Below, piece by piece: positions 28,011-61,393 of a stretch of 64,000 bases of DNA. The stretch is from positions 27,336,858 to 27,400,857 of the forward strand of contig OX387190.1 in assembly GCA_947561395.2 (NCBI GenBank), given 5' to 3'. The notes beneath the pieces are model-generated. The model saw nothing but the letters and a program-made list of their open reading frames with translations. It searched no databases and had not been told where the DNA came from. A program made the position numbers and the translations under genes. Source of the DNA: Buxus sempervirens. Taxonomy: Eukaryota > Streptophyta > Magnoliopsida > Buxales > Buxaceae. The first letter of the stretch is position 1. Every line of letters begins with the position of its first letter.

Positions 28011-28022
28011 GCAAAATTTTCG

Positions 28023-28236
28023 TGCCCGTATTTGAACTACGGGCATGCCTTGCCCGTACTTTAAGTACGGGCGTGCCTTGCCCGTAATTCAATTACGGGC
28101 GAAAAACGAATATTTGCAATTATCGCAGATTCTTCCGTACGGGACGCGTGTCCCGCCACGCGTCCCCTTCTAGAAGCTTGCCCGTAGTTGAAGTACGGGC
28201 ATGCCTCGCCCGTACTCCAAATACGGGCGTGCACGT
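28023..28236. repeat. Palindrome array, GCCCGTA/TACGGGC type (5' LTR copy)
   Basis: Identical to 18563-18776. It lies just upstream of the promoter TATA box at 28001-28010 in the transcribing 5' LTR. Confidence 0.9.
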
Positions 28237-35686: not shown

Positions 35687-38108
35687 TGTGAGACATGGAA
35701 ATGTCACCTAAGATGACCTTCAGTGTCTTTACGCGGGGATCATTAAAAGTAAAGAGTCGCCACCATTCAAGTTAAGGTGTGAATGGACACCAAAGGGTTC
35801 ATAAAAGCCAAATAGAGCCAATGTAGCTTTAATACAAAGAAAACTCCAGAGATCAGGTAAGGGGAACTATTTATGAGCGGGGGAAGGTGTTAGGCACCCC
35901 CACTCATCCGTCTAAGACGGTTGCCATATATTTGCTCATGCTAAGGGTTGTTTGCTAACTGAAATCAAGAAAGGAGTGCTTGAAATTAAGCACCATGTGT
36001 GTGATTCCTTCATATGAATAATCCAATAGATTTTGGACTCTCTTTATGGAAATATCACTTCTAGAACTTCATGAGTGAATGAAAATCAAAGTAGAAATGA
36101 AGAAAAATCCAGCTAAGGTAAATCTGGAAAAATCTGGTTATGAGAACTTGAAGACTTCGATCAACCATAAATCACTCAATTTAAATTCAAATCAAATGAA
36201 ACCAAAGCCATTTGAAATCTGGTACAGTATAGAGTATACAGTAAAAAACTTAGCTCAATCCGATTTAAAATAAGAGAAAAACACTCTATGGAAATCCGCT
36301 GCTGTAACTCGGAAAAAGCGGTGAGTAAGCATTTTCAAAACACTATTCGTGGAGTTTGGCTCCATATAAATTCATGAAAATTTGCATGGATGAAGTATGT
36401 GGTGCCATATTTTAAATGAAATAAGCCTCACACAAAACTCCATCCAGGTGTGACTTGTGTGTGCGCCTGAATAGGCCTAGAAGACCACAGATTAGCTCAG
36501 GACTATGCCATTGAGCAGCTCTGAGTCAATCGAGCACACAGGCCACAAATCAAATCAAAATCTGCTGAAACTAGTTGGAGATGAAAATAAGATGAAAATA
36601 GATTCCTCAAAGAAAACACAGAAATTGAAATCACCCAAAATGGATTAAAATTGAGCAAATGGTGCACCATCAAAGCGGCAAGTTCAGCAATCTGGGCTGA
36701 ACTAATTTACAGACTTTGAACCGATGGTGTAAAAAATTGGCTCCATAAAAATGAATAAAAATTTCTAGATACAAAGTAGGCCATTTCATCTATCACATGT
36801 CTTTGGAATCGCTCAAAAATTCATCCGGAGGATGAAGTTATAAGCATTCCAAGACAGGCCACAGATGCTGCCCTGTTTTGAAGATTTTTGAATAAAAGGT
36901 GAAAACCAGTGCATGTGGATTCGACCAAAACAATCTTGAAATCAAGAAAATAACTCATAAAGTTCTAAAAATTCATTCTAGGCTTGGAATCTTAGATTTT
37001 CCATATTGAGCATGGAAAATCCAAGATCTAACTTATTCTTGCAAAACAGTGAAAAGTGTGTGTGAGATGTTGAAAACCACATATCTAGGAGAAGATTGGA
37101 ATCCACTGCTGTTGAAAGCATGGATTCCTGCATCTTATCCAAATACAAATACAAAATAGATCAGATAAGCAACTATGGGCAAAAAAATAACCAACATGCT
37201 CTTCATCATATGTAGGTTCTAGGCTTAGAGGATCCATCCCATTTTCCTTTTCCCCAGGCTCTTTCTTCACGTTTTACGGCTAGAGAGGATTCCCAGGTAC
37301 TTTGGAAGAGGTTTGGGGCTACAAAATTCCACCCAAGGCCTTACACTACAGAAAGGTAGAAGTTGGGAGTTGGAAATGTAAAGAAGAAGTTGGAAATGAA
37401 ATAGAACTTTACCTTTGATGACTTGAGCACTTGAGGCAGCAATCCAGCAGAGTTTTCCCTCTTCTTGCAAAGCTTCCAAGCTTTAAATTATCAGCCATTT
37501 GCAAGAGGAGGACCCCTCTATTTATAGGCACAACCAAGGGCATAAGAGTCCCAAGGGTATGCCAAAAAACTCTTCTAGATTATTCCAATTCTCATTAAAG
37601 GCTTGAATTGGAGTAATTTCGCAAGTTTCGGAGGGTGAAATAAGGAGTTCAAGTCCCTGAGAGAGAGGTAATATGTGTAAATAAGGCTCAGAGATCGAGC
37701 CATTTCGCAAATCGCCAAAACAACCAAAATCGCATACACAGTGCGGTTTCCACAGAACCGTCACTTTATGTGCGGTTTCCATGTAAATTCACCTCAACCG
37801 CACATACAGGGTGGTTCCAATTCAGTTACGCTTGTCATGATTGCTGGTGATGTGGCTCAATGGCCAAAGCTTCTAGAAGCCACGTGGCAGCTCACGCGAG
37901 AAGCATGAACATCAACTGTGCTGTGTATGCGGTTGCAACCGTACATATAGGGCGGTTGAGACCAAATTCTCAAAAACCGTATATTCAGTGCGGTTAGCAT
38001 CATTCTTGAGTATTTTTGAGTGTTTGACACATGTCAAGGCTCAAATAAAACATTTAAAGTTCTTTTTGACTGTTCTCTTATATTGAAGTGCAATTTGGGG
38101 TGTCTACT
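35687..38108 (-). repeat. 3' LTR of element E
   Basis: About 2.4 kb, beginning TGTGAGACATGG on the plus strand. It has the shared tail motif GTGGCGACTC (complement of 35754-35763), the GGGGGAAGGTGTTAGGCACC block near 35880, a TATA box (CTATTTATAG, 37518-37527, minus sense) and a GCGGTT/AACCGC palindrome array at about 37739-37998. Confidence 0.85.
37739..37998. repeat. Palindrome array, GCGGTT/AACCGC type, in LTR of element E
   Basis: GTGCGGTT and AACCGCAC half-sites alternate across about 260 bp, about 210 bp upstream of the TATA box in minus sense. The units are looser than in the other LTRs. Confidence 0.65.
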
Positions 38109-38122: not shown

Positions 38123-38458
38123 GCTGGAATTGGAATCAATTGACAGCGGAGAGCCAAAAGACCCGCAAATTGTGCTGCCTAAGATCATGTCCATTCAATC
38201 ATAACTTGCAAGAACTCCAAAATATGAATTTTGGAAAAAAGAATTTGTTTAGAAGATTTGATGAAAAGTCCCTAACTTTAAGGGGGCAAACCCTCTTCTC
38301 GCGTCTCACAGAGCACTCGTGGCTATGAAGTGAGATTTGAGCAAAATTTTAAAACAAAAGTTGATAGGGTGGTGTTTCTTGCAATTCACAACTATCTTGG
38401 ACACAAATCTCTTGAAATAGAAAGGAAATAGTTTTGAAAATCAATTTTTTGTGCTAAC

Positions 38459-38532
38459 CATACTTGAAATGCGGTTTTTGACAATTTCAATACCAACCGC
38501 TCTGTTTGTGCGGTTCTCTAGGTTGCATAAAA
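38459..38532 (+). promoter_or_regulatory. Presumed promoter of the antisense PMD gene in element E (GCGGTT palindromes plus TATA-like box)
   Basis: Inverted half-sites TGCGGTT...AACCGC and GTGCGGTT...AAACCG occur here, followed by GCATAAAACC. The half-site core is the same as in E's own LTR. A GC-rich, CT-rich leader-like region follows, similar to the one after the corresponding array in element F (44094 onward). Confidence 0.5.
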
Positions 38533-40170: not shown

Positions 40171-41053
40171 GATGGCCCGCACCCGTCGTGTTTCTCGGGG
40201 TCCCGCAGATGAGCCTTCATCTTCGAGGCTTCGGATGGACTCGGCCGATGTGGCATCTTCTTCTAGGGCCGAGCCGGATCCTGATCTTTCCTCTTCTAGC
40301 AATCTGGAGATCTCAAATTCAGATTCTGGAGCATCCGGGGGTTCGTGAGAGCCTACCCCTGAGGTATTCTCTTTTCTCTTCAAAATCCAGGCCTTTCCCT
40401 TACAATCATTTAACCTGACCCCATCCTGTTTGCATTTCTAGCCCGCTGCTGAGGTTCGAGGTCGCAGGGGAGCTCGCCGCAGAAGTAGGGTAGAGGCCCG
40501 GGTGACTCGCGTTGCCATTCCTGCGGGGATAGCGGATCAGATCCGAGATACCCCTCTTCTTCATGATCTGAGGACGCACCCTTCTGCGGGCGTCAGGGCT
40601 GACATTCCCCTTGTCTACCCGTCTTCTCATTTTCACAGGAGTTGGGCTCTTTTCGCCGAGATAGTGGCTGCATGTTCGACTCCTTTGCGTCGAGAGATGA
40701 GCCGTTTTGGGTTCGGCCCATTCATCACCATCACCGGCGTTCGTCAGGATCGTCCTCTGATAGCGGCTATGATGGAGCGGTTTTTTCCAAAGACCTTGAG
40801 CTTCCACTTGCCTGATGTAGAGATTGGGATTCGTCCCTCTGACTTCGCTCTCATTACCGGGATCAGGATGACTGGAGATGTCATCACTGAGTTGGATAGG
40901 CCAGCCGATTCGGAGATTGCCGAGCTTTTGGGATATGAGGAGATGCCAGTGGAGGCATGGGACAAGAGCAGGATCACAAGCATTTCCTGGACCTGGTTGA
41001 GGAAGACCTTGGAGAGGAGATATAGTACCGTGGCAGCGAAGCATCCCAGCTTC
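40171..41053 (+). CDS. Antisense plant mobile domain (PMD/MAIN-like) gene of element E, 5' part
   Basis: The plus-strand coding region is antisense to element E. A short first exon starts MARTRRVSRGPADEP at 40171. After a GT-AG type intron comes an RG-rich start (VRGRRGARRRSR) and then a PMD-like domain (RADIPLVYPSSH, MMERFFPKTLSFHLPDVEIG, IRPSDFALITGIRMTG). Host PMD proteins such as MAIN and MAIL1 act in the nucleus in silencing and growth, and PMD sequences are known as passengers of plant transposons. The domain is clearly homologous to that of element F. Element F inserts within it at 41054, so the rest lies outside the window. It is treated as part of a fossil element. Confidence 0.7.
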
Positions 41054-42934
41054 TGTGAGACATGGAAAAATCACCGGAATGATCATCCCTCCGTCAACAC
41101 ACGGGCTCAACGCAAAATTGGGAGAGTCGCCACCATTCATTATTTTGGGGTGTGAATGGGCACCAAAATCATCAAAAATAAGCAAAAAAGAGACAAAAGA
41201 AACATTCTTGGATAAAAATAACCCTACTTGAAAATCAAATCCAGAGATGGGTAAGGGGATTAGATTATGAACGGGGGAAGGTGTTAGGCACCCCCATTCA
41301 TCCACACGAAGTGGTAGCCAAGTGTATGTTCATGCAAAAATAAGAAAGCTTGCTAAAATCATAGAAAACCTTGAAAAAGGACCAATGTATGATATTTTCA
41401 CATGAAGATCTAAATGGATTCTAGATCCTCTCTTATGTCAACATCATTTCTGGAATATCACAAAAAGATGTAAATCAAAGCACAAGTTATTCAAAAACCA
41501 AGTTGAATCAAATCCGAGAAATTTGGTAAAAAGTAATGCCATTTGTCTTGAAATCATTCAAATCCAATTTTAAATTGAACCAAACCAAATCCATTTGAAA
41601 GATCTTAGTAAATAAGGGACTCATGCAAAATTTCAAGTCAATCCGGTTGAAATCCTAGGAGTTACGCTCCTTTAAGGTTGCTGTTGCGGATAATCAAAAA
41701 GTGATAAGTGGGCAACTTTGGGAAATTGCATAGAAAAATCCACGAAAATTGGTGTGATTGAAGTCTGAATGACCATCTTTCAAAAGAAACTAGCCTCATA
41801 CAAAAATCCCTTCGGATGTGCCTTGGGTGGTCTCCCGAACAGGCCCCGAAGATCACAGATTTACCCAGAAAAATGCCATTGAGCAGTTCTGAGTAAATCG
41901 GCTACCAATAATTCAAATGGAGTCAAAAAATTATGAAACCAACTGGATTTGAAAATAGACTCATAAAGGAGTGCCCAAAAACAAAAATCACTCGAATCGG
42001 ACTTAAAACAAACACATGGCGCTCCGTCGAAGTGACAAGTTCTGTATTTGAACCTGAACTGTCCAATAAACTTCGACAGAGAGGTGTCAAAAATCCGTTC
42101 GATAGAAATTTATGAAATTTGGTGGACGTAAACTAGACAGCCTCACCTTTCCCATGGTTCTAGAATTGCTCCAAAATTCATCCGGACGATGAAGTTATGA
42201 GCGTCCGAAGTAAGGGTACAGGTGCTGTCCAGTCAGGCCTTTTTTGAGTAAAACCAATGCAAAAATGTGACAAAGTGTGTGCCATTCGTGCAAGATGAAC
42301 ACAAAACCTTTAAAAATCATCCAAAGACATTTCATAATTGATTGAGGCCATTTATTTAAGATTTATCACAATGAATGTAATGAATCCCCAAATGTGAGCC
42401 TATCCCGCCAAAATAGTGATATGTATGTGCAAGTGTGAAAAACCATACAAGATCAATAGCATGCATACATATTCATCAAAATGAGGTTCTAAAATAGCCT
42501 AGGGTTCCGTTCCATTATCGTTTCCCTCTGTTCTCTCTCCCCGTTAAACACGGTTCTTCAAGATAATCAAGGGTACTTTGAATATGAAACGGTTTACAAT
42601 CAATCAAAAGGCTTTATGCTACATAGGTTCTAGTACTAGGATCAATCCCCGGTCTCGTTTCTCCTAGATCTCGCCTCCACGTTTTACGGCTAGGGGGAGT
42701 CTCGAGATACTTTGAGCCGGGGAAGGGTTTTCACACACAAAGAAGGCCTTATTCTACAGAAAGGTAGAAGAATAGATCTAGATCTAGGAATGTAAAGACA
42801 GAAAATAAAAGAAAAGTTTGAGGCTTACCTGGGTTCTGGATGCGATCCCGCAGCGGTTTTCTTCTTCTCTTGGAGTTCTTCTTGGCGAGAATTCAAAACA
42901 AGAGTTAATGGCCATTTGCTTGAGGAGGAGCCTC

Positions 42935-42944
42935 CTATTTATAG
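42935..42944 (-). promoter_or_regulatory. TATA box in LTR of element F
   Basis: CTATAAATAG on the minus strand. The position and surroundings match the solo LTR at 12774-12783. Confidence 0.7.
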
Positions 42945-43107
42945 GCAAAGGCTAGGGTTAGGGTTGGTGATAATGGTAGACACAACATAATGTCTATAGC
43001 CCACCAACCTTAACCCTAAGGCTATTTCCGAGATTTCCCCTCATTTAATGAAGGATACGATGGTAAAAGTGAAAAACTCTCGGAAAACCCTAATTTTGAG
43101 CAAAACT

Positions 43108-43258
43108 TGCGTATCCGGTCTGAGTTGCCGGATACACAAGGGCCTTAAGGTATCCGGTATATAATACCGGATACACTAAGCACTGCCTGTATCCGGTATT
43201 TGTCACCGGATACACAGAGGACCACTTGTATCCGGCCTGAGGTTCCGGATACAGGTAA
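43108..43258. repeat. Palindrome array, TATCCGG/CCGGATA type, in LTR of element F
   Basis: Four inverted repeats such as GTATCCGGTCTGAGTTGCCG, TATCCGGTATATAATACCGG and GTATCCGGTATTTGTCACCG lie about 165 bp upstream of the TATA box in minus sense. Confidence 0.88.
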
Positions 43259-43342
43259 AAATTCATTTTCTTCAATTTCTGTGCTGGGTTTCAAGGAGAT
43301 AATGATTTTTGATGATTATTTGTGCAATTTGGGGTGTCTACA

Positions 43343-43357
43343 ACTGCCCTTCTTTGC
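43343..43357 (-). other. Polypurine tract of element F
   Basis: The minus strand reads GCAAAGAAGGGCAGT directly before the LTR start TGTAGACACC. Confidence 0.75.
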
Positions 43358-43746
43358 GGGAGCTGCAAAGCAGTGAGTTGCAAAGATTAGACAAGCCCAA
43401 ATTGCACTCCCTTAAGCATGATTTGCTTGATTCAATTCAATTTTGTAAAAAACAATTTCTGAGTGAAGATTTGCCAAAAAGCCCTAACTTTAAGGGGGGC
43501 ATCTCTCCAAGAGTTCTTAAATTCCACTGAGCTCTCGTGGCTATGAAGTGGATTCTAAGCCCAAAAATAGGATTTTTGAAAACTGATTTTTTATCAAACC
43601 AAGTTGAAAATTGAGTGGATATCTTCCTTTTGACTAGCACATTTCCCAAAGTTGTCCTAAATTCCACCGAGCTCTCGTGGCTGTGAGGTGGATTTTATGG
43701 CAAAAATAGGATTTTGTGAGAAAATAGTGGAATTTGTAGCACAATT

Positions 43747-44014
43747 TTGCTATATTTCTTTTTTCCTCTCCTTTTTCTTTTTCTTTTTCCTTTTTTTTCT
43801 TTTCCTTTCTTTTCTTCTTTTTTTTTTTCATATTTTTCTTTTTCCTTTTTTTCATTTCCTTTTCTTTTTTTTTTTCTCTTTTTTTTCTTTTCTTTTTTTT
43901 TCTTTTCCTTTCTTTTCTTCTTTTTTTTCATATTTTTCTTCTTCTTTTTTCCCTTTTTTATTTCTTTTTCTCTCTTTTTTCCTCTTTTTTCTTTTTTTTT
44001 CTCTTTTTTCTTTT
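43747..44014 (+). repeat. Long polypyrimidine tract
   Basis: About 270 bp made almost only of T and C (TTTTC/TTTTTC units), hence polypurine on the element strand. It lies between the 3' LTR and the antisense promoter. Both strands carry long low-complexity ORFs here that are not genes. Confidence 0.9.
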
Positions 44015-44093
44015 GTATCCGGTATAACATACCGGATAATAGTGAGCTTCTGTGTATCCGGTCTGATTCACCGGATACACATGCTTTTATAAG
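44015..44093 (+). promoter_or_regulatory. Presumed promoter of the antisense PMD gene of element F
   Basis: Two clean palindromes of the TATCCGG type (44016-44038 and 44052-44080) are followed within about 6 bp by TTTATAAG (44086-44093). A GC- and CT-rich leader-like stretch (CGCGCGCGACCGCGAC) follows. The palindrome core equals that of F's LTR. Confidence 0.6.
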
Positions 44094-45531
44094 TCGCGCG
44101 CGACCGCGACTTTCCCAATTCTTTTCTTCCTGCTCCGATTACTCAAACCGGACATCTCCTCCCTTCCTTGTCCCCGACGACTCTTCATCATTCTCCGGCG
44201 ATCTCCAGCAACTCCGGTGCCCCCTATTGCTGCCGGCGACGGCCTGTGACTTCGGCGACTTCCATTGTCGCCCATTCTTGGCCGTGGTCGAGCCCTAGCT
44301 CGATTTCTTCAGATTCTTGGTGGTTTTCTCAACCCAACGCCATCGTCCTTGCTCCGGTGATATTCTTTGAGTTCCGGAGAATTGTTCTTTACCAATCCGA
44401 CTTACCTGCTTGTAATCAGGTACCCCTTTTACTGCATTGTTAATCAAACAGTGGTGGCTTGGTCTCTTCAATCGAACATGTTCCTGTTTAGCCTAAGCAC
44501 CGAATTACCACTTATGAATTGTTTGTTGATTTGCATTGGGTAGATTATTTTCCCCACGTAAGCAGGATCAGTGAACACACTTGGACTGTTCATTTGTAAT
44601 TGAACTTTTGGATGAATCATCTTTGGCCTAATTGCTGCTGGAATTTTGGTGCCATTTGCTGTTGTTTTTTTTCTTCAATTTGCTCCAACTATATCCAAGC
44701 ATGCTTTGATTTTGTCTATCATGCAATTGATCGCCCATTTACCATTGTGACTTGGTCCTATTGGGGCTTGCCGACTTAACTCCATGCTGTTTGCTGTCTT
44801 CTTTTTTTTCAATTTTTAGAACTGATTGACTGCCGGTGATATTCATTGAACTGCTAATTGTATGCTGGAACAATTTTTTTCTTTGCTATAATTGGCTTGG
44901 ATCCCCCAACAGCATGTGTTAGTTATAGTCGATCATGCAACCGGTATCTTTGTCAAGACCCCTGGATTTTCTGTCAGTAGTAACTTCTGCCTAAATTGCC
45001 CATTTCTCCTACCACCGAATTATGCCATGATGTTGCTGTTGACTGTATTGCCTGTTCTGAATTTCTGCCTGCCAATGATGATACCATGCTACAAAAATTT
45101 AACTTGAACTCTGATTTGCCTGCTGGTGGTGATCTACCACTTGAACTTGTTTTCTAGCTTCAGTATTGCCGGGATTAAAGGCTTCTGCTCACTTTCCATT
45201 TTGCTGTGAAATTTCCCTAATTGACTTGCCAATCTGGATTTCTGCAATTCTGCTTGCTTTTGATACTTGGGCCCTCTATCTTCTCATATCCTGGAACCAT
45301 AGCATATCAGGAAATGTTAGGTTTTGTAGGAATCTTTTTAGAAGGAAAAAAAATGTTTCAGGATTAGAAACAGAAATATTCCTTATTTCAGAACTTTGTA
45401 GAAAACCCAAATGAGGTAAAATTCTTTCACGACAATTTTGAAAAATAATCATGTAAGATTGGATGTGAACTGTAAGCAAAGCCAAATCTCATAGATTTAG
45501 ACTGAAATTCATAAAACACTTCCTTGTGTAG

Positions 45532-48200
45532 ATGGCTAGGAGTCGTTCTCGTGTGCGAGAGGAGGCTGACCCTGCTGATCAGCCCTCCACTTCGCGGGCT
45601 CGGACAGAGGCGAGTTCCAGCGCCACCCTGTCGGAGCCGCTAGATGTCTCCAGGGAGAGCTCTGCTGAGGTAGGCTTTCAAAATTTTCTTTTCTTCCTTC
45701 CATTCTCTTTCCCCACAGACCTTCACATTTCCTTTTGGATTTCAGCCTGTTGTTGCTCCTGCTCGGGGTCGAGGCAGAGGCCGAGGCAGAGTTCAGGATC
45801 AAGCCCTCGAGGGCGAGAGAGGCCGTGGCAGAGGCCGGGGCAGAGCCAGAGGTGCGGCTCAGGATGGTACTGCTGTAGCTCTGTCAGGGGTCTCTGAGGA
45901 GCTGAGAGCGTCTGTTCATGATACAGAGCTTCTCAGTGGCTTGGATAGCCACCCTTCTATGTGCATCAGGGCAGATGTGCCTCTTTCGTATCACTCCTCC
46001 CATTTGCGAGGCAGTTGGGGGAGATTCAGTGAGTTGGCCCAGTCACTTTCTCTGGCCCTCAGGCGCGAGTTTGGGAGGTGTCATCTGGACTATTTCCTTA
46101 GCATCCCATCCTTCAGAGCCGACTGTCCACTCATCTTCGCCATGATGGAGAGATATTTTCCGGAGACTCAGTCATTCCATCTTCCGGACGTGGAGCTAGG
46201 GATCCGCCCCTCAGATTTTGTGATGATCACCGGTATTCCCTTGACGGGGCGGACCATCGTCCTGGAGCGGCCTACTGCGGAGGACATCGGCCTCCTTCTG
46301 GGATATCAGGCCCTGCCACCTGCTGCTTGGGATGGGCGGAGTGGTCGTGTTTCCATTAGCTGGCTGCGGGAGAGCCTAGCTCGACATTATGAGGGGAGAC
46401 ATGCAACCGTCTCTGTGGAGGATGCAGCCTTTGCACCTATCTTCCGGCATGTTTTTCTGCTGATGCTTGGGAGCTGCTTCTTTCCGGAGGATACGACCAG
46501 CGTTAGTCCGATCTTTTTGGACGCCTTGAGAGATTTCCATCAGACCCGCCAGCTAGTATGGGGTCGACTCATCTATGGGACCATCCTAGCCGGGTTGTGC
46601 CAAGCGGTTCGAGGCCTGGCATCCCCGAGAGGTGATGGAGTCAGCAGCTGGTTCTTCTGGCAGATTCTGCAGGTATTGAATTCATCTGTCTGGTTTAATC
46701 TCTTATGCTTCATTTGTTTCTGACTGATTTTTCTTTTGCTAGGTGTTCATGTACACCTATATGACCTTCTTCTGCCCATCCCCGGTACCTGAGGTCGCGG
46801 ATTTTCCTGTGGCTTTGCGGTGGTCGGCCCAGGTCCAAGATGCTGATAGGAGTCAGCCTCGTACTGCTCGGGTGCACTTGGACCGCGCCCGACGATCCGA
46901 TGTGAATTCTTTGCCTCTTCCCTTTTGTTTCTTTTCCTGCACCTTGACTGTATCTGACTATTTTTCTTCCTTACAGATCCTTCTGGCACGCTTTGATGAC
47001 GTGGATGTCGGAGTGGCCCGTGAGATGGCTGTACAGGACACCTTTGATAGAGACCGGCGACGTCAGCCCTACCAGTGCTTCCTTGGGAGGCTTGGTAGGG
47101 TGATGTACTTGGGGGAGCGCCTGTACTACCAGCACACTGGCGCACTTCGCATCCCCGTTCCTTCTCCTCCTGTGGGTCCCGACACACTCCTCACAGGCTT
47201 TGATGTGGATCAGTTCGATCACTTCCTGGATGCGGAGGGGCTCACAGTAGCTGGAGATTACGACGAGTGGATCCAGAGAGTCTCTATTGGATGCTTGATG
47301 GATCAACCCACTCGTGCCGGGGTGACTGAGATCGGCGGGATCTGCATTCGAGTCCATGAGGACACGGTAAGCCTTGTAATCTTCATATTTTCATCCTCTT
47401 TTCCTTCCTTATGTATTTCTGACCCTATTTCTGTTCTTGTTGGCAGGTACACGAGCTGAATACCATCCGGGATCGGTTCGAGAGCCACCGGGCCGTGATT
47501 GATGATATGATCGCAGAGCACGATGCGGTCGTGGCCCAGCGTGATGCTAGGATCAAAGAGCTGGAGGCCCTGGTTGCTGAGCTCCAGGCTAGACAGGTAT
47601 CTGGCCTTCTTGTAATTTCATTTCTTTTATTTCCCTGTTTCTGTTATTCTGATATTGCGTTTTTACTTGTGCAGGGCCCGGTCCATGATTAGGATGCTGC
47701 CTACGAGCCTGACTTTTCTGTTCCTGATCCGCCTCTAGCTCGGGCTGCTGATTTCGAGGATGCCCCTTCGGCTGGTCCTGATGAGCCGGATCCCCTGGTT
47801 CCTACTGCAGACATTCCTGGTATATTTAATTTTCCTCTTTGGTTTCTCTTTATATCTTGATTTTCTGACTTTCTCTGTGGACCCAGCTACTTCTACTCTT
47901 GGTCCATCTGCTGTTGAGGCTGGGCCTTCTGGAGCTGCAGGAGCAGAGCCTGTTATGGCTGAGGGCCCAGTTGGGTCGATTGTTGTTGAGCCAGAGGCTT
48001 CCTCCCCAGATTCTGCTCCTGCTTTGCCCCCAGACATCGAGGAGTATTGCCTGGAGTATCAGCTCTAGCAGGTGGAGGGTCGGCATCCTCGCCATGCAGC
48101 CGAGCGTATTCTTGCCTACTCTAGGGGCAGAGCGCTTCGAGGGAGAGGCCGTAGAGGTGGACGCGGCCGAGGACGCGTGGATGATCCTGCATAGGAGTAG
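45532..48200 (+). CDS. Antisense plant mobile domain (PMD/MAIN-like) gene of element F
   Basis: Plus-strand, multi-exon, antisense to F. The first exon starts MARSRSRVREEADPADQPST at 45532 and ends at a GAG|GTAGG donor (45669). The second exon (45746 to about 46672) has an RGRGRGRG segment and the PMD-like domain (MCIRADVPLSYHSSHLRG, FHLPDVELGIRPSDFVMITG, ISWLRESLARHYEGRHATVS). Further coding-like segments separated by GT-AG type introns follow. They include a coiled-coil-like part (DAVVAQRDARIKELEALVAE at about 47521-47580) and a second RG-rich tail near 48120-48180. Host PMD proteins act in the nucleus; a role here in element silencing or regulation is only inference. Exact exon limits beyond the second are uncertain. 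A roughly 1.4-kb leader, perhaps with an intron, separates it from the promoter. Confidence 0.7.
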
Positions 48201-48412
48201 TAGATTAGGATTTTTTCTTTTCATGTATTGATCTCATCATTCCTTGTACAAAAAACTTGCATATATATATATGAAAAAACTTTTTATTCATTCTCTCTTG
48301 TCTTGCACATCTTTTGTTTTCAATTTTATGCAATTATGACTTGTACACAGGTAAAACAAGTAAAAAATTCGGATTTTCCATCATTTGCTCTTTTTTTTTG
48401 CTGTTTTTCTTT

Positions 48413-48574
48413 GTATCCGGTCTGATATACCGGATACATTGATTGTTCTTTGTATCCGGTATAACATACCGGATACACATGGCCTCCTTTGTATCCGGTA
48501 TACTTAACCGGATATGAATAAAACCTTGTTTATCCGGTCTGAGTTACCGGATACATTAAAAGATACTATAAATG
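48413..48574 (+). promoter_or_regulatory. Presumed promoter of the second antisense gene of element F
   Basis: Four TATCCGG-type palindromes occur in tandem (for example GTATCCGGTCTGATATACCG and GTATCCGGTATAACATACCG). The last ends about 11 bp before ACTATAAATG (TATA at 48567-48574). The first in-frame ATG is at 48684, leaving a leader of plausible length. Confidence 0.65.
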
Positions 48575-48683
48575 CAACCAGCCTTGGGATTTGAGCATTT
48601 TTTACGAGTTTTTGAGTTTAGAAACCCCATTTTTTGCCTTTTTCTTCCTCCTCTTGAGTTCTAGCTTGCTCCCATCAACTCCA

Positions 48684-50395
48684 ATGGAATCCGGATCATC
48701 TTCTGCCCCATTATTGTCTGTCCACACTGCCTCCCCTGCAAAACAACCTTTTAGATCAAAACTCCCAAATCTCACTAGGTACAACCCTGTGGATTCCTTT
48801 TACACAAGATGGGTTAACTCTATGACCCTTGATGAAGAGAGGAGATGGGATTCTACTAATCTAGGCCACACTCTGCTCATTCCCAAGGTTCCCTTCAAGT
48901 GGGAGATTATAGAGGCCATGATTGGTCATTGGGTACCCGACCTCAACCTTTTCCGTTTTGGGACCCATGAAATGACCCAAACCATTGAGGAGGTGGAAAC
49001 CATCTTGGGCTTGAGGTTTGCTGAGAAGGTAGTGAATCCACCTCTTAGGCCCAGTTACAAAAGGAAGCTTCTACATTCTTGGGCATAGGGAAGAAGGACT
49101 TAGGAGATTTTGACACCCTTTTGACCCTATCTAAGGCTTTTTTGACTGAGAAGCTTTTGAGAGGGGAAAATAAGGAAGCCCGGTTCAACGCCTTGACCCT
49201 GATAGTGGTCAACCAGCTGCTTTTCCCACGAGATGATGATGAGGTGGACTTGGCCTTGATTTCAGTGATATGCCAGGTTAGGGAGCGGGAGAGGTTGGCC
49301 CCTATGATTTTGGCTGGGATGTATCAGGCCTTGACTGATTGCTACAATAGGAAGTCGAAACGCTTCTTAGCATGTGCCCAGATCCTGCAGGTAAAAATTT
49401 TTTTTTTTTGCTTTCTTTTTTTTTTTGCTTTTTTGCTTTTTTGCTTTTTTGCTTTCTTTTTGCTTTTTTTTTCTTTTACAATGTGTTGATATATCTTTTC
49501 TCCTTTGCAGCTTTGGCTACTTGATCATTTGAGTCAGATTGAGGAAATCAATCGACACTTCTTCCCGAGCTTGAAAGTCCCCATCTTGATGAGCAACCGG
49601 GGGTGTCCCGATATTCCAGGGGGCAAACAGGGCTGGTTCACTTTCTTGGGCTCACTTCAGGATGACCAAGTGAGATGGCCTGGTACTTATCAGCCCAATG
49701 CGGAGACAGTGATTAGCTTTCGTAACCGCAATTTTCTGATCCTAGCTGGCCTGAGACACGCAGTGCTGTATCTTCCTCTGCGGGTCCTTCGTCAGTTCAG
49801 AGCGATCCAGGGGATTATCATCCCAAGTGGGTATGAGGATCATCTTGGGCCCCTTTCTCCAGATACCATGAAGTTGAATGCCTGGTTGATGAGGGAGTGG
49901 TCATATGTTTGCTTCATGCGTGGCCCAGTCTTCTCAGAAGCCCATGTGAAAGATTATCTCTTCTGGATCAAGGAGCAGATACAGAGTCAGGCACCAGTAC
50001 CCGAAGATCCTCCTGCAGTCTTGGCTCCTACTTATGAGGATATTTTAGAGTCTGAGAGGGCTTCCCACAAGCGACTTCAGCAGATATGGGTATGAGAGGC
50101 CCAGGAGCTTAGGATACAGGGCCTTGATATGGAAAGGCAACTTGCATAACAGGTATCTCGCCGTCTGGCCATGGAGAAGCAACTTGAGGAAAATAGGCAG
50201 GCCCGCTGTCTTGAAGTCCGGGCACTGCGGCAGAAGCATCAGGATGCTTTAGCCAGCCTTAGGAGCATGAGGATTAGGCAGACTCTTTCAGATGAGGTCA
50301 TTTCCTTCTTGAGTGATCCCGCTGCTGAGGGGGCTTCTGGGGTTATCGCAGCTTAGGCAGCTCGGATTCGGGAGCTTGAGGAGCGGCTAGGAGAC
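48684..50395 (+). CDS. Second antisense gene of element F, DUF7745-like
   Basis: Plus-strand, antisense to F. It starts MESGSSSAPLLSVHTASPAK at 48684. A region follows with WEIIEAMIGHWVPDLNLFRF and EMTQTIEEVETILGLRF, the TIEE(Y/V)xxILGL pattern I associate with plant DUF7745 proteins. Next comes a helical region (ALTLIVVNQLLFPRDDDEVD). After a GT-AG type intron whose donor follows CTGCAG near 49390 and whose acceptor is near 49510, the region with WLLDHLSQIEEINRHFFPSL and GKQGWFTFLGSLQDDQVRWP appears. The C-terminal part looks like a coiled coil (EKQLEENRQARCLEVRALRQ). DUF7745 proteins have no known activity and are common in plant retrotransposon-rich DNA. The family call is from memory. It is treated as part of the fossil. 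Confidence 0.55.
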
Positions 50396-51528: not shown

Positions 51529-54500
51529 CTAAGTTTCCTTCCTGGTAGTTCTGGGCCTCACTTTCTTATTGTAGGCCCGGGCCATTCTCTTCTGGTACAA
51601 TTGGCCATGACATAGTGCTTTCAATCGCTTTTCTTCTATTAGGTTGAGTTGATCATGTCTTGACTGTACCCATTCGGCTTCTTCCAGTTCTGCTTCCATG
51701 AGCACCCTGAGTGATGGGATTTCTACTTCCACTGGCAAGACTGCTTCCATTCCATAGACTAGGGAATACGGGGTTGCCCCAGTTGAAGTCCGGATTGAGG
51801 TTCTGTAGGCATGTAGAGCAAGTGGCAGCATTTCGTGCCAATCCTTGTAGCTTACTACCATCTTTTGAATGATTTTCTTTATATTCTTGTTTGCTGCTTC
51901 CACTGCCCCATTCATCTTTGGCCTGTATGGAGCTGACTTGTGGTGGGTGATCTGAAACTGCTCACACATTTTCTTCATGTCCTTGTTCTTAATATTTGAA
52001 GCGTTGTCTGATACTATGGCACTTGGCAGTCCATAGCGACAAATGATATTGTGCTTCAAAAACTTAATGACATGGTTGCTCGTGATATTTGCATATGATG
52101 CTGCTTCCACCCATTTAGTGAAGTAATCAATCGCCACCAGGATGAATCTGTGCCCGTTCGATGCCTTAGGGGAGATCATGCCAATAACATCTATGCCCCA
52201 CATAGAGAAGGGCCATGGGGATGTCATGTTGTGCAACTCACCCGAGGGTGCATGCTTATTATCTGCATATATCTGACATTGGTGGCACCTCCTGACATGT
52301 ATACAGCAATCATGTTCCATGGTCGTCAAGTAATATCCCAGCCTCAAGATTTTCTTCGCAAGCATGTGTCCACTCATATGGGGCCCGCAAACTCCTCCAT
52401 GTACAGTTTCAATCAATCTTTCTGATTCAGCCTTGGCAACACATCTGAGCAGAATGTCTTTATGTGACCTCTTGTACACATGTCCACCACTTAGCAGAAA
52501 TTGACCAGCCAATCTTTGTATTGTCCTCTTCTCAGTAGCAGTGGCATTTTCTGGCAGACTCCGATTGTTCAAGAAATTTTTGATATCTTGAAACCACAGT
52601 GCTTCTTCTTCTGGTGCTCCCTCTAGAACGAGACAGTAAGCCGGTTCATCTCTAACCTCAATTTCTAGCGGTCTGATGTCTAATCCTTCTGGTATGCTGA
52701 CCATTGAAGCCAAGGTTGCTAGAGCATCCGCAAATTGATTCTTGGCCCTTGGCATATAATTGAAGGAAATTCGAGTGAAATTTGTGCTTATTTCTTCCAA
52801 ATACTGGTGATAGGGGATCAATTTGTGATCCTTGGTTTTCCATTCACCAGTTGTTTGGAAGATGATAAGACTCGAATCCCCGTATATGTCAAGTTCCTCT
52901 ACTCTATGATCCATGGCTGCTTGCAATCCAATTATGCATGCCTCATATTCTGCTATGTTATTGGTGCACTGGAATCTCAGCTTTATTGCAATCGGGATGT
53001 GTGAACCATCTGGTTTAACCAAGACTGCCCCTATTCCGTTCCCATTCATGTTGGCGGCCCCATCAAAGAACATCTGCCAAGAACTCTCACTTTCCTCCTC
53101 TTCAGTGTATAGGATTGCCTCATCTGGGAAGTTGGTCTTCAAGGGTTGATATTCTGGCAGAGGATGTGCAGCCAGGTGATCAGCTATGGCTTGACCCTTG
53201 ATCGCCTTTTGGGTGATATACGTGAGGTCAAACTCGGATAGTAGTAGTTGCCACTTTGTCGTCCTGCCAGTCAGTGCCGGTTTCTCAAATAAATATTTCA
53301 AAGGGTCCATCCGGGATATCAATAGTGTGGAGTGACTAAGGAAGTAATGCCTTAGCCTCTGAGTGGCCCACACTAGAGCACAGCAGGTCTTCTTCAATGA
53401 TGAATACTTGGCTTCATATTCCGTGAATTTTTTACTTAGATAGTAAATGGCCCTTTCTTTTTTACCAGTCTCATCATGCTGCCCCAGGACACATCCCATC
53501 GATGTTTCCAACACTGACAAGTACAGGATCAGTGGTCTTCCTGGGGTTGGTGGCACTAGCACAGGTGGGTTCAGCAAATATTCCTTGATCGTATCGAAGG
53601 CCTGTTGGCAATCTTCATTCCAGACCGTCGGCTTATCCTTCCTTAGAAGCTTGAAAATTGGTTCACAGATAGCAGTGAGCTGTGCTATGAACCGGCTTAT
53701 GTATTGAATTTTCCCGAGAAAACCACGAACCTCCTTCTCGGTTCTGAGTGCTAGCATTTCAATTATGGCTTTGGCTTTAGCCGAGTCAATTTCAATTCCT
53801 CTTCGGCTCACTATAAACCCCAGCAACTTCCCTGATGTAGCCCCAAAGACGCACTTAGCCGGGTTAAGCCGTAGACTGTACTTCCTGAGCCGATCAAACA
53901 CTTTCTTCAGATTGATCAAGTGGTCCTCCTCTTTGCATGATTTGGCAATCATATCGTCCACATAGACCTCCATCTCCTTGTGGATCATGTCATGGAATAG
54001 TGCAGTCATGGCCCGCTGGTATGTTGCCCCAGCGTTTTTAAGCCCAAACGGCATGACTGTATAGTGGAATGTGCCCCAAGGTGTGATAAATGCTGTTTTT
54101 TCTTGATCTTCCTTAGCCATCTTGATCTGATTATATCCTGAGAAGCCATCCATGAAGGAGAATAGGCTATGTATCGCAGTATTGTCCACCAAGATGTCTA
54201 TGTGTGGAAGCGGAAAGTCATCCTTTGGGCTTGCTTTGTTCAGATCTCTGTAATCCACGCACATTCTGACTTTCCCTTCCTTCTTTGGCACTGGCACTAT
54301 GTTTGCAAGCCACTCAGGATACTAGAGACTGCCAGAAATCCTGCTTGGAATTGTTTGACCACTTCGTCCTTGACCTTCAAGGTCCATTCAGGTTTCAATC
54401 TTTTCAGCTTCTGCTTAATTGGCTTAACCCCTTGCAAAATTGGCAACTTATGCACCACCATGTCTGTGTCCAACCCCGGCATGTCCCGATATGACCAAGC

Positions 54501-54935
54501 GAACACATCTTTGTAGTCTGCCAAGAACTGTGACATTTCATTTTTCTGCACATCAGACAAGCATGACCCGATTTTCACAATTTTTGGGTCCTCTTCGGTC
54601 CCAAGATTTATGGATATGGTCTCCTCAATATTAGGTTGGACCCCCTTTTCATGACGTTCCAATTGGTATTCAATTTCTTTTGGAACGTCTTCTCCTTCGA
54701 CCTCGATCTCTTCTTTGATCCCCATGAGGTTAAAGGCGAGCTCGAAGTTGAAGTCATATTCAACTTGGTCCAATTCGGTCTGATTATATGGTTCATAAGT
54801 GGTTTGGACCTTTTTGAAAAAATTAAGTTTTCTAGAAAAAATAGAAAAATCTTTTTGGGTTTTTTGTGAGCCTTCTAAATATAATTCCCCTGAAGACGAA
54901 GGCCCATTAGAACCTTCAGGGAAATGGCATTCCAC
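51529..54935 (-). CDS. Pol region of element F: RT, RNase H, second RNase H, integrase (fossil)
   Basis: On the minus strand the order is: reverse transcriptase (MCVDYRDLNKASPKDDFPLP, FMDGFSGYNQI, MPFGLKNAGATYQR, YVDDMIAKS); RNase H (LYLSVLETSMGCVLGQHDE); an extra, archaeal-type RNase H (FFDGAANMNGNGIGAVLV, IAEYEACIIGL, DALATLASM); integrase zinc finger (HGGVCGPHMSG...CHQCQIYAD); and integrase core (WGIDVIGMISPKASNGHRF, DNASNIKNKDMKK, HKSAPYRPKMNGAVEAANKN). The second RNase H is known as a mark of the Tat clade. The region is long and well preserved but not fully continuous, so it is described as a fossil with few breaks. Confidence 0.93.
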
Positions 54936-55017
54936 TATTGGAGTTTTTTTTTGGAAGCCGCGTCAGTTTTCCACACAGACGCTGCCTCAAAGGTAAGGGG
55001 AGTTTCCTCCCAATTGT

Positions 55018-58000
55018 TTAATACAAAATTTTTGGGAGCAGGGGAAATAGGGAAAGCCTGCTCCTCAAGCCCGCGTCCGATGCCATCATCACCGGGTGGG
55101 TACTGCCCTTTTCTGCTACGGGGCCCAGTCCAGATATAATCTCATCTGGAATCTTCACTGCGGCCCAATCAATGAAAGGTAGCTCGTTGTCACTACCAGT
55201 TTTTTCGCCTTCAGTCATGGCGAAGAAAGCCCCCACATCTTTAGAGAAGTCTGTCCGCTGCTCTGGTTGTGGCCCAGGCCCCTCGGCTGCTCCCAGTATA
55301 GGAGATGGGTTGTATGGTTGCAAGGCCGAAACAAAAGGCTTTTGAAATGGATTGATGTTGTGGTAATGAGGTTTTGACTGGTCCAAAGGAGGAGACAGTT
55401 GGATGATGCAAGAGGGTTTTGGAAAACTTTCCCTTAAATGAGGGAGTTTTCCTTTGCTTCTTTCCTCTCCTTCTTCATGCTTCATCCTCCTCCATCCTCT
55501 GGGCTTGAAGCCCAACCCTACTTTAGGGATCAGTTTCTTAGCCGTGATTGGCTCCACCATCCCCTGCAAATTGATTCCCAGGCGTTTCCCCGGGTGAAAG
55601 TGGTATTTCTCCATCACTTTCTTTATCATTTTCTCTGCAGTGGTCCCCTTTTCCTTCTTTTTCTCACACCCCCCAGGTATGAAATTTACTGTCTCAAATT
55701 GAAATGAGTGGAATGCTATCTTGTCGACAGTCAAGTCCACATTGATTAAGGGTACATCAGGTGACACTATAGGAGGCACCAAGTTTTCGGCTAGGACTGT
55801 TATCACCCTTTGCCCTCTTACATATTTCACCCTTTGGTGGAGCGTGGATGGTATTGCCCTAGCCGAATGTATCCACGGCCTTCCTAGGAGCAGATTGAAG
55901 GCTGCGGGTATATCCATCACCTCAAATGTGATGTTAAAGATATTCGGCCCAATTGTGACCGGCAGTTCAATCTCCCCTAGGGAGTGGGTCTTGGAGCTAT
56001 CAAAAGCCCTCACTATCCGCCCATTTTGTTTGATCCGTGACTGGTCCAGACCCAGCTTGGTAAAAGTGATTAACAGGCAAACATTTAACGCCGACCCATT
56101 GTCAATTAGAACTCGTGCAATCATGCAGCCCTTACAAAGCACAGTGATGTGCAAAGGGTCAACGTGATAACACCCATCTGGGCTGATCTCATCCTTTGAG
56201 AAACTTATCACATTATGTGACAAGATTTGACCAACCATTTTGCCAAGCTGGTCTGGATCGATTGTCTGGGATACATGTGCACTCTGTAGCACCCTTAACA
56301 ATGCGTCCTTGTGCTTTTCGGAATTCAGCAGAAGGCTCAGTATTGAAATCTGGACCGGGACCTTGTTTAGCTGGTCCACAAGATTGAATTCACTTTTTTT
56401 GATTATTTTAATGAGGTCTGCTGCCTCATTTTCTGCACCCTGGGGGGTGTCTTCTCCCACTTTGTTTTTTCCTTTTTGTTTTCTTTTTTCTTCATTTTCT
56501 TTTTTTTCTTTTTCTGCTTCTGTCTCCTTCTCCTTCTCTTCACCCCCTGTACATTTCCCCGACCTCGTCATGAGGTTCACCTCCTCCTGGTTCTGGTTCC
56601 TAACCACTGGAACCGTAGCCGTGATTCCCTCGCTGTAATTCCATGGTATAGCGGCCTCAGAATAGGCTAGTTTGGGGATATTAACCACTAATGGCTGGAG
56701 TTTGGACCAGGATGTATGGGCCGGTTTAGGGATAGTGTGGGCTGGCTGAACATTTACAACTAAGGGTTGAAGTTTGGAATTTGTGGGGACAGAAGAAGTG
56801 ATGGAAGCAGTGGTGGGGTCAAGGTTGATGACCAGTGGAGCCTTGGACGGCTTAGATGGTGAATAGACGGGTGGACTGCAATTGAAGACCAATGGAGGCC
56901 TTGCAGTATTCATTTGGGCCATGAGTGAAGAGACCCGGTTTAAAGAGGAGCTTATGTCCTCAGCAGCAGGATTATTATTTTTTTGGGAGACCATGTTGAT
57001 CTCGTCTTCCTCCTCTTCTTGGAAGAAATGGACTTGGACTGTGGTCCCCACGGGTGCTATAAGCTGAGATGGGTCAAAGGTCCTTCTCGTGGTGGATATG
57101 GCCGTGATGGAGTTGGATGGGCTTGCCCCATTGTGGTAAGGCAGAGGGTTCTGCCCAATATTATTCCCGGACGGTGCGGGTGCAGCAGTGTTAAAAACCA
57201 AGGCCTTCTGGTCCAACAAGTCCTGGACCGCGTGCTTCAACACCCAACAAGCATCTGTAGAGTGCCCCGGTGCACCCATGTGGAAGTCACAGGTGACTGC
57301 CGGATCAAAATTCCTCCCCTTAGTGGAGTTCGGGCTTGGTTCCTTCAAGGTCACATATTCCCCTTTCAGCAGGGTTGGCAATAATTGGGAAAGAGATACT
57401 GGAAGGGGAGTAAAGACTCGGTTCTTTCTTGCTGCGAACCAGGCCTCCCTCTCTTCCTTAGAAAAAGTCCTCCTTGGGTTAGCTGGCACGGAGGGAGAGA
57501 AATTGACATTGTGTGGGGTTTGATAAGAGTGCTGGGCCTGTTGGGCCTGCTGGGGTGCAGAGATATTTACGTGAAGCGGCTTCTTGGCTGGAGGAGCCTG
57601 GACCAGATTCACTTCCCCTTCTTTTCGGGCTCCTGTCTTCTTGAACCCGGTTCCCTTCTTCTGGGCCATGGAGGCCGAGGAATCAGACTGCCCAGTCAGA
57701 GTAGAGTAGTCTATCAGCCTTCCTGACCTAACCCTTTCTTTGATCCGGTCCGCCACCTGCACCAGGGCTGCAAAGTTGGTGGTGATCTGACCCACCAGAT
57801 GGTTGTAGAAGGGCTGGCCCAGTGTGCCCATAAATGTGGAGATCATCTCTGGTTCTTGCATAGGTGGCCTGACCTGGGAGGCGGCCTCTCTCCACCTCTT
57901 GGCGTATTGCCGTACTGGCTCGTCTTTCCCCTTGCTCATTCTCATCATGTAGTACCGGTCTGGCACGATCTCAGAGTTGAATTTATATTGGTCTAAGAAG

Positions 58001-58708
58001 GCGTCGGCTAGGTCCTTCCACCTCCTGATCCTTCCATGGTCCACTGTAGCGAACCACCGAAGAGCTGACCCAGTCAGACTCCTTTGGAAGAGTTGGATCA
58101 GTATGCCGTCATCCCGGCCAAATTGGCACAAGGCCCCACAGTATAACTTCAAGTGGCTCAATGGGCAGCCCGTGCCATCAAAATTGTCGAAGTCCGGGCA
58201 CCTGAACTTGGCCGGTAAACATACGTCAGGATACATTCACAGATCTTCAAAGGTGGTGCCTCCATGGCTACTTCCCCCTTCACCTCCTTCAGCTCTGCCT
58301 GGATTCTTTCTATCCTGAGCAGCATTTTCTTTCCATTTCTTCCCTAGCCTTTTCTTTCTCCAGCTCTTTCTCCGATTCTGCTATATTTTCCCTGATCAGA
58401 ATGGGTTCAGGGACCGGTTCAGAAACGGGCTCAGGCATGGGTTGAGCCGGAGGCGGCATGTAGGCCTGCGGTGGTGGTGCCTGATGAGATGTCGATGCTT
58501 GATTTTGGGCTTGAGCCTATTGGGCCTGAGCCGCCAGTAGGTTTCCCAGCATCTTGGCCAGACCGGCCACCTGCTCTTGCAGCTGAGCAAAGTCTTGAGC
58601 AGGTACGGTGGTTTGGGCTTGGTTCTCTTCAGTGTTCATGGCTCTAGCTTTAGATCTGGTCACGGGAGCAATGGTTGCAAATAATTGTACCTGGATCAGG
58701 AAAAGCAA
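55018..58708 (-). CDS. Gag-protease region of element F (fossil)
   Basis: The minus strand begins near 58708 with MNTEENQAQTTVPAQDFAQL-like sequence. The gag domain follows (KFRCPDFDNFDGTGCPLSHL, FQRSLTGSALRWFATVDHGR, RQYAKRWREAASQVRPPMQE), then a CDFHMGAPGHSTDACW zinc-finger-like motif. A low-complexity K/E-rich linker leads to an aspartic-protease-like region (VLIDNGSALNVC, FNLLLGRPWIHSARAIPSTL). This forms the particle and matures the polyprotein in living relatives. It is mostly open, with few breaks. Confidence 0.9.
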
Positions 58709-58829: not shown

Positions 58830-59289
58830 TGGTGTGTTGGAATATTTTAGGGCTTCCAAGGGTCTCGCAGATTTTTGATTTGATTGGTACGAAAAGGACC
58901 AACCAAGGGTTTTTATGGAACATTTTAGGGCTTCCAAAGGTCCCATTTTTTTTTGATTGGATTGATAAAAATAACCAACCAAGGTTTTCATGGAATATTC
59001 TAGGGCTTCCAAGCGTCCCACACATGTTTTGATTTGATTGATAAAAATAACCAACCAAAGGTTTCTTGGAATATTCTAGGGCTTCCAAGTGTCCCACAAA
59101 TGTTTTGATTTGATTGATAAAAATAACCAACCAAAGGTTTCTTGGAATATTCTAGGGCTTCCAAGTGTCCCACAAATGTTTTGATTTGATTGATAAAAAT
59201 AACCAACCAAAGGTTTCTTGGAATATTCTAGGGCTTCCAAGTGTCCCACAAATGTTTTGATTTGATTGATAAAAATAACCAACCAAAGG
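58830..59289 (-). repeat. 76-bp tandem array in the leader of element F, part 1
   Basis: About six copies of a 76-bp unit with GGAATATTCTAGGGCTTCCA and TTTTGATTTGATTGATAAAA. The unit boundaries at 59060 and 59136 give the period. Copies near 58830-58930 are more diverged. The array continues after the inserted solo LTR at 62346. Confidence 0.92.
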
Positions 59290-60349: not shown

Positions 60350-60495
60350 GTGTAGCCGGCCTGAGATGCCGGTTACACACAGGTCACTGTGTATCCGGCA
60401 TCTGTTGCCGGCTATACACTGGTCTCTGTGTATTCGGCATCTATTGCCGGCTACACACAGGCTTACGTTGATCCGGCCTGAGTTGCCGGATCAAT
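60350..60495. repeat. Second palindrome array in the solo LTR, GCCGG-type
   Basis: Four inverted repeats such as GTATCCGGCATCTGTTGCCG and GATCCGGCCTGAGTTGCCGG lie about 0.9 kb downstream of the TATA box in element sense. Confidence 0.85.
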
Positions 60496-61374: not shown

Positions 61375-61384
61375 TATTTATAGA
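61375..61384 (-). promoter_or_regulatory. TATA box of the solo LTR at 59290-62345
   Basis: CTATAAATAG on the minus strand with the palindrome array about 10 bp upstream. Confidence 0.72.
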
Positions 61385-61393
61385 AAACTTAAT

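Follow-up and report, generated by a model that had tools for sequence, protein, structure and literature searches.

What is the purpose of the tandem short palindromes that stand, with a half-site that changes between retroelements, both in the long terminal repeats (LTRs) and ahead of internal antisense genes? This question is raised by a 64,000-nucleotide stretch of contig OX387190.1 (hereafter, the window), whose genes and elements point to a plant source and in which a retrotransposon on the minus strand, element F, is nested in another one, element E. F extends beyond the end of the window. Together with 40 kb of flank, which include a third element, D, starting at about 89711 (L012), 104 kb were analyzed in all. 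Coordinates are window positions unless prefixed by a locus label, and genome-wide pattern counts were taken over the 676.5-Mb genome. The first-pass annotation, which described the palindrome arrays, had seen something real: they are non-random and more orderly than it claimed.

Indeed, a single 23-bp dyad accommodates all four half-site cores of the window: NNNCCGNN-N7-NNCGGNNN, in other words CCG-N11-CGG with variable flanks. In a common register, the cores read TGCCCGTA (D-type, found in D and in a gag-only element that we take to be of the kind named TR-GAG), TGTCCGCA (T-type, in the LTR at 7554), TATCCGGY (F-type), and AAACCGCA (E-type); each is followed by seven free bases and then by its own reverse complement. 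A family-blind scan of the 104 kb for CCG-N11-CGG, with at least 4/5 variable pairs matched, returned 44 dyads, against a chance expectation of 0.1 on average and of 1 at most (40 Markov-1 resamples), and the same scan at the same threshold returned none at spacings N10 and N12. All 44 lie in retroelement DNA, an assignment that rests on a hand-drawn element map: LTRs account for 32 of them, antisense promoters for 6, and leaders for 5, the last one being located beside pol. Those of the LTRs belong to the T LTR (2), an older F-family LTR (2), the F LTRs (8), the E LTR (1), the TR-GAG LTRs (10 ahead of the box, and another 2 at about 1.1 kb on its downstream side), and a solo LTR (4 upstream of the box and 3 downstream); the others belong to the two F antisense promoters (2 and 4), the F leader (3), an E-like leader (2), and the boundary between E gene 2 and pol (1).

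The same frame is found across the genome. With variable spacers permitted (ranges from 1–9 to 1–13), exact palindromes amounted to 28,452 for F vs. 14 for a reversed-pattern control, 11,285 vs. 61 for D, 3740 vs. 3 for E, and 278 vs. 0 for T. Among the matches listed, the two F 7-mers were separated by 9 bp in 100 cases out of 100, with 1–11 permitted, and the spacer measured 7 bp in 50/50 cases for D, 49/50 for E, and 50/50 for T; mixed F-D dyads were absent genome-wide. The arms are kept and the spacers are not: over 21 F-type units aligned in a 39-bp register (F 3′ LTR, both antisense promoters, leader, and solo LTR, with the F 5′ LTR and the older LTR, of four units each, excluded), the mean share of the commonest base was 0.86 in the arms, a value depressed by two leader units lying one base out of register, vs. 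0.54 in the spacers and 0.54 in the linkers.

Around the nine CTATAAATAG boxes of the 104 kb, we counted 25 dyads in total within 500 bp upstream and none downstream (threshold of at least 4/5); on C1, among the matches listed, 23 of the 73 boxes have an exact palindrome of F or D type within 400 bp upstream, and none has one downstream. The five pairs of array and box reported by the first-pass annotation were all recovered with the array upstream (Table 1), the last box, at 61374, being one base off; the LTR at 7554–8925 does carry an array and no CTATAAATAG box, as it had noted, and a second TR-GAG LTR, with its own box and array, had been overlooked. It had also placed arrays before the TATA-like boxes of three plus-strand genes: the arrays are there, at 38456, 44016, and 48414, but only the last is followed by a clear box, CTATAAATG, the strings found after the first (GCATAA) and the second (TTTTATAAG) being weaker.

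One may ask whether such palindromes act on DNA at all. Dyads with matching arms presumably form hairpins as well, which could serve in RNA packaging, RNA stability, or small-RNA production. U3 sequence is present at the 3′ end of full-length LTR-element RNA, where the U3 arrays are thus expected, and 5 of the 44 dyads are found further downstream in LTRs. However, the position around the nine boxes, upstream within 500 bp and never downstream, speaks against a role in RNA: arrays that precede the TATA boxes and the antisense genes would be left out of the 5′ portion of either presumed transcript. Moreover, what is kept within an element is the identity of the half-site, beyond its complementarity. 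We consider a hairpin function very improbable and go on with the dyads as sites on DNA.

Do the cores agree within an element? We placed nine slots by hand (the 3′ LTR, promoter 1, promoter 2, and leader of F; the 3′ LTR, promoter 1, and promoter 2 of E; the LTR and promoter 1 of D), leaving the remaining F and E LTRs aside, and extracted half-sites by the frame alone, at a symmetry of at least 5/8. Three of the nine, namely promoter 2 of E and both D slots, come from beyond the window and were read only once the claim of agreement had been made. Flank similarity was 0.81 within elements (10 pairs, minimum 0.61) vs. 0.21 between elements (26 pairs, maximum 0.35), a contrast reached by 1 of 1260 label permutations. 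The claim that cores agree within an element and differ between elements is thus borne out for D, E, and F. That F uses one core in its LTR, antisense promoters, and leader holds as to the agreement itself, but not as to the leader: the arrays taken for it, at 60350–61640, sit in the solo LTR, and the leader array of F is another one, at 63111–63249. The LTR at 75402–77707, presumed partner of the E 3′ LTR, was excluded from the count because the two are only 83% identical; it may belong to another E-family copy. E-type dyads at 88259–88330 adjoin the D LTR and seem discordant; as no primer-binding site is found left of that LTR, D was probably inserted in an E-like leader.

The most telling comparison comes from the TR-GAG lineage. 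Two LTRs found elsewhere in the genome, L099 and L100, are 71–80% identical to the TR-GAG LTR on either side of the array and yet bear E-type instead of D-type arms, in a layout of 2 + 2 dyads for L099 and 3 + 2 for L100, the latter being that of the TR-GAG LTR; the box of L099 is the same as in TR-GAG, CTATTTATAG. When the five dyads of L100 and of the TR-GAG LTR are matched in order, 40 of the 80 arm positions differ vs. 12 of the 35 spacer positions; the part that is most conserved within an array is thus the most changed between these two LTRs. Spacers of the form NTTNAAN, typical of the TR-GAG LTR, occupy 37/50 D-arm places and 9/50 E-arm places among the matches listed. The solo LTR of the window is a third case, with F arms: its homology to the TR-GAG LTR (71%) is confined to the two ends, and the 39-bp period points to F as the source of its array.

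What, then, could read these sites? The antisense frames of F, E, and D are related to the plant mobile domain (PMD, PF10536) or to DUF7745. The first frame of F gene 1 matches PF10536 at 48 bits, the second frame matching no Pfam family; the corresponding scores in E and D are 32.8 bits (E-value of 5.6e-08) and 29.4 bits (E-value of 6e-07), both below the curated cut-off of 34.9. Gene 2 lies above the DUF7745 cut-off of 26 in F (37.9) as well as in E (45.9). The E PMD frame, of 237 codons, runs on for 33 codons into the LTR of F. PF04195 (TRP28) gave no match at an E-value of 0.01 or less in the seven F and E antisense frames or in the further antisense frames tested. These PMD-related proteins diverge far faster than pol: between E and F, identity is 84.8% for pol (566 amino acids, aa), 46.7% for the first PMD protein (PMD1, 197 aa), and 60–77% for gene 2, and PMD1 identity is 69.4% between D and E (134 aa) and 52.8% between D and F (123 aa). 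A fast change of the antisense protein together with a change of the arms is what co-evolution would predict, which three elements cannot prove.

The fixed spacing, the conserved arms, the free spacers, the element-matched arms, and the place upstream of TATA boxes make it very probable that the arrays are operators of a symmetric dimer. The dyad has an invariant CCG-N11-CGG scaffold, in which the outer three and inner two bases would set the specificity, and the dimer would read both arms while ignoring the 7-bp spacer. Several such units are located about 20–480 bp upstream of LTR TATA boxes and ahead of the antisense-gene promoters of the same element. That this dimer is the PMD-family protein of the element itself is a question on which we are evenly divided, the likeliest reader being the product of its antisense gene 1 or of gene 2 with DUF7745. 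Binding to the copies of its family, such a protein would maintain their promoters in an active or unsilenced state and boost its own gene, in the manner of VANC in VANDAL elements. For gag-only relatives, no gene of this kind was found; they bear the arms of one autonomous family, so that they would use its activator and could switch between families by arm exchange. Activation or anti-silencing is favored over repression because of the VANC analogy and of what gag-only elements would gain from sharing a site. Since each core contains a CpG (context CCG/CGG), the binding may be methylation-dependent. Taken as a whole, operators read by an element's own antisense PMD protein, with a VANC-like action, is the reading that we favor, with a chance of being right of about one half.

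Several observations weigh against this reading, and one has to keep them in mind, first for the arrays and then for the PMD partner. The comparison bears on three autonomous elements only (D, E, and F), and the D and E slots are decayed or weaker, being visible only at the relaxed threshold of at least 5/8; at the strict one, the box of the E 3′ LTR and that of D have no dyad upstream. L099 and L100 were picked for their promising arms and spacers and hold four of the nine listed E-arm NTTNAAN places; the downstream pair of L099 is decayed, and the box of L100 is a variant, CTTTTATAG (same-strand reading). Mixed D-E dyads do exist (113 genome-wide, 51 + 62), mostly with a few recurring spacer types, and are probably copies of a few sites. 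On C1, 76 listed CTATAAATAG boxes have no F or D palindrome listed in their vicinity, and we inspected 45 of these (L004–L008, L049–L088): ten carry arrays of type D, E, or F, often in a decayed state (L052, L057, L060, L067, L068, L072, L074, L075, L084, and L088), the remaining ones, L008 and L077 aside (see below), show none of the five tested cores, and no LTR has a second array of these cores at antisense-promoter distance, so that the 45 boxes cannot test core agreement.

Spacers, moreover, recur between LTR and antisense arrays: in E, the context AACCGCACATACAGGG[CT]GGTT is found at 37796 and 69093; in F, CTGAGTT is shared by the LTR and the antisense arrays and ATAACAT by both antisense promoters. 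If the arrays were copied, the slots are not independent, and the agreement within elements may be partly due to copying. Could concerted evolution then suffice, tandem repeats being spread within an element by template switching or gene conversion, with no partner involved? The 39-bp period common to F and to the solo LTR goes in the same direction as the recurring spacers. However, this account leaves aside a spacer whose length is constant among the matches listed while its sequence varies, arms that are far more conserved than spacers, and a TR-GAG lineage in which, over five paired sites, the arms changed more than the spacers and flanks did; on its own, we find it distinctly unlikely. 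Agreement within elements does not by itself separate copying from co-evolution, and the TR-GAG arm switch separates them better. The first-pass annotation had proposed an operator co-evolving with a DNA-binding partner or else kept alike by gene conversion, with a supposed coupling of sense and antisense transcription, and of the two alternatives something of each survives: the operator-like features and a plausible, fast-evolving PMD partner on one side, and, on the other, copying between the slots of one element, which is part of the story.

As for the partner, the 1.4 kb upstream of other PMD loci hold no array of the CCG-N11-CGG frame in nine cases out of ten, the tenth (L090) having only a D-type array, apparently that of a TR-GAG-like LTR, and a longer stretch upstream of the L047 PMD locus holds no array either. 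These loci lack arrays of their own, so that PMD genes do not in general come paired with one. A search of PDB by sequence gave a single match (E-value of 0.26, not meaningful), and the accessible parts of the literature contain no report of DNA binding by PMD that we could find. The lack of arrays at nine of these ten loci would suit a host factor instead: the dyads would be operators of paralogous host dimers recognizing CCG...CGG inverted repeats, for which we assume LBD/AS2-type proteins to be candidates, and each element would adapt to one paralogue. Sireviruses also have similar CGG-CCG palindrome arrays upstream of the TATA box, in an account whose available text does not mention a PMD gene. 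What a host factor leaves unexplained is that one core is used at every tested slot of an element and another one in a neighbor with 85% pol identity, and that this coincides with fast-evolving antisense PMD genes. We regard it as possible, although on the unlikely side, and retain the antisense PMD protein as the candidate reader.

The features on which this argument rests are listed in Table 1.

Table 1. Coordinates of the elements, arrays, boxes, and antisense genes.
Feature	Position	Strand	Remarks
F 3′ LTR	41054–43342	−	partner 5′ LTR 64608–66895 (L009); pair 99.5% identical
F LTR box CTATAAATAG	42935–42944	−
F LTR array	43112–43251		four TATCCGG-type dyads, 39-bp period
F antisense promoter 1 array	44016–44077	+	two dyads, then TTTTATAAG at 44085
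F antisense gene 1	45674–47456	+	open frames 45674–46720 and 46743–47456
F antisense promoter 2 array	48414–48553	+	four dyads
TATA-type box CTATAAATG	48566–48574	+	ahead of F antisense gene 2
F antisense gene 2	48543–50092	+	PMD/DUF7745-related frames; last frame 49490–50092 without Pfam match
F gag and pol	51532–58236	−	reverse transcriptase (RT), two RNase H domains, integrase
F own leader array	63111–63249
E 3′ LTR	35687–38008	−	box 37518
E LTR arrays	37727–37997		AAACCGCA/TGCGGTTT type, two clusters, partly decayed; box 37518
E antisense promoter 1 array	38456–38516	+	GCATAA near 38525
E antisense PMD gene	40442–41053	+	interrupted by F insertion at 41054
E gene 2	L009:5335–5937		E-type promoter array at about L009:5085–5215
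TR-GAG-type element	16877–28801	−	LTRs 16877–19341 and 26337–28801, 99.96% identical
TR-GAG LTR array	18563–18769		TGCCCGTA type, 3 + 2 dyads; box 18541
TR-GAG element, gag coding region	21923–23557	−	PF03732
Second TR-GAG LTR array	28023–28229		identical array; box 28001
Solo LTR	59290–62345	−	inserted in F leader; flanks AAAGG and AAAGT
Solo LTR array	61395–61638		F-type; box 61374
Older F-family LTR array	12467–12606		decayed F-type; box 12774
T-type array	7658–7764		TGTCCGCA-N7-TGCGGACA, 28-bp period; in LTR 7554–8925, without CTATAAATAG box

F pol is a single frame in which the domains follow one another as RVT_1 (11–171), RT_RNaseH (260–364), RVT_3 (419–537), and rve (704–801), RVT_3 being a second RNase H domain. 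An additional RNase H domain is a hallmark of Tat elements; from this domain and from the order RT–RNase H–integrase, F can be classified as a probable Tat-type Ty3/gypsy element. The BLAST pair of its LTRs spans 41054–43349 and 64608–66902, and the end at TGTCTACA gives the limits 43342 and 66895 that we retained. The TR-GAG element appears to consist of two LTRs and gag, without pol, and to be non-autonomous, the absence of pol being judged on 7 of its 10 other internal frames of at least 90 aa, which were run against Pfam without a match in any of them.

Other repeats and palindromes were noted along the way. The internal region of the TR-GAG element has a 70-bp repeat in about 9.5 copies (23763–24436), many of which carry the palindrome TCAACCGCC-ACTTC-GGAGGTTGA, outside the CCG-N11-CGG frame, and each of its LTRs has a single dyad, GGCCCGTT-N7-AACGGGCC, at 17435 and 26895, at a distance of about 1.1 kb downstream from the TATA box. 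The F leader contains an array of 76-bp tandem repeats, and the solo LTR stands between its two halves (58837–59290 and 62346–62810); another F copy has a comparable array nearby (L048, reverse complement, 299–746). In L048, an F LTR with its leader array stands beside another PMD element; L047 and L048 represent another PMD-carrying family, in which some 3.4 kb separate two PMD frames and which has no arrays of its own upstream. E has an extra E-type array at 71400–71520 (L009:7400–7520), in the interval that separates the ends of antisense gene 2 and of pol, and no such array was seen in the corresponding stretch of F. The recurring spacers of the mixed D-E dyads, such as TACTAAA and TAATAAA, perhaps belong to a D-like family with one switched arm. 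On C1, L008 (C1:1112261–1115270) is an LTR-like promoter with an unrelated palindrome, TGCCTTTT...AAAAGGCA, devoid of CCG, upstream of CTATAAATAG; the matches at 1.2–1.3 kb in L077 are short and were taken for an unrelated repeat.

The functions of the Tat antisense genes and of the plant mobile domain are still open, according to the accessible parts of two accounts (PMC11963269, PMC5418596). If PMD proteins do bind their own dyads, it would become clear why the genes are retained, by what means a gag-only relative selects its helper, and in what way host PMD proteins might find their target promoters. The dyad arms also provide a simple sequence signature to sort elements into groups that possibly share an activator.

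How new is such a system? The first-pass annotation knew of no description of it, and we found none in the open-licence literature for Tat or TR-GAG arrays, for a fixed CCG-N11-CGG frame, or for arm exchange; its claim has to be tempered, however, as the LTR arrays of Sireviruses are a close precedent, by which the Tat arrays are partly anticipated in another group of retrotransposons. In the available text on these elements, 13 Sireviruses have repeated palindromic motifs (the core being CGG-CCG in 12 of them), which precede the TATA box of the LTR and also the env-like gene where present (BMC Genomics 2010, PMC2829016). Common to both are thus element-specific, CpG-rich palindromes, repeated a short way upstream of the TATA box and again ahead of an internal gene, for which a regulatory role was proposed. 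The differences are that Sireviruses are Ty1/copia elements, whereas the domain order here is that of Ty3/gypsy; that their CGG...CCG core has short gaps varying between elements, in place of CCG-N11-CGG with one length; that the internal gene is env-like there and an antisense PMD gene here; and that neither a partner protein nor a switch in non-autonomous relatives appears in the parts of that account available to us.

In terms of the proposed mechanism, the likeness is with VANC, which binds family-specific motifs in tandem repeats (PMC5735166): as far as the accessible text goes, there too the protein is encoded by the element, protein and motifs both diverge rapidly, and an unrelated element bearing the motif is also affected (PMC5735166, PMC10398659). 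VANDALs are, however, DNA transposons whose motifs are not written as dyads in these sources, and binding and hypomethylation were shown there by experiment, whereas the Tat arrays are known from sequence alone. Among Tat elements themselves, a DNA-binding or regulatory role has been proposed for the antisense ORFs (open reading frames) of Retand and its relatives, with an own promoter reported for maize Grande (PMC11963269, PMC7264820); the domain is TRP28 (PF04195) there and PMD/DUF7745 here, and operator arrays common with the LTR are not described in the available text.

As for the domain, the portions of the literature at our disposal report two PMD clades encoded by Gypsy elements and speculate on anti-silencing by PMDs captured by Mutator-like elements (MULEs) (PMC5418596). 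They also describe the PMD proteins MAIN and MAIL1, which are needed by Arabidopsis genes with a common promoter motif, DOWN (PMC7156037, PMC9899485). In the MORC1 promoter, this motif reads CATGCAGTTT (reverse complement AAACTGCATG) and differs from the E half-site AAACCGCA by one mismatch in eight, a match for which the probability by chance is about 1% over 24 comparisons made after the fact. MAIN and MAIL1 differ in acting on host genes, through a single motif and no dyad arrays, and direct DNA binding is not shown in the parts of these papers available to us. Putting these systems together, we suggest, tentatively and at less than even chances, that Tat LTR elements have a VANC-like self-recognition, in which an antisense PMD dimer would read a family-coded dyad and activate or unsilence its own LTR and gene, non-autonomous elements would steal this activator by rewriting their arms, and host MAIN/MAIL1 and the DOWN motif would be a domesticated pair.

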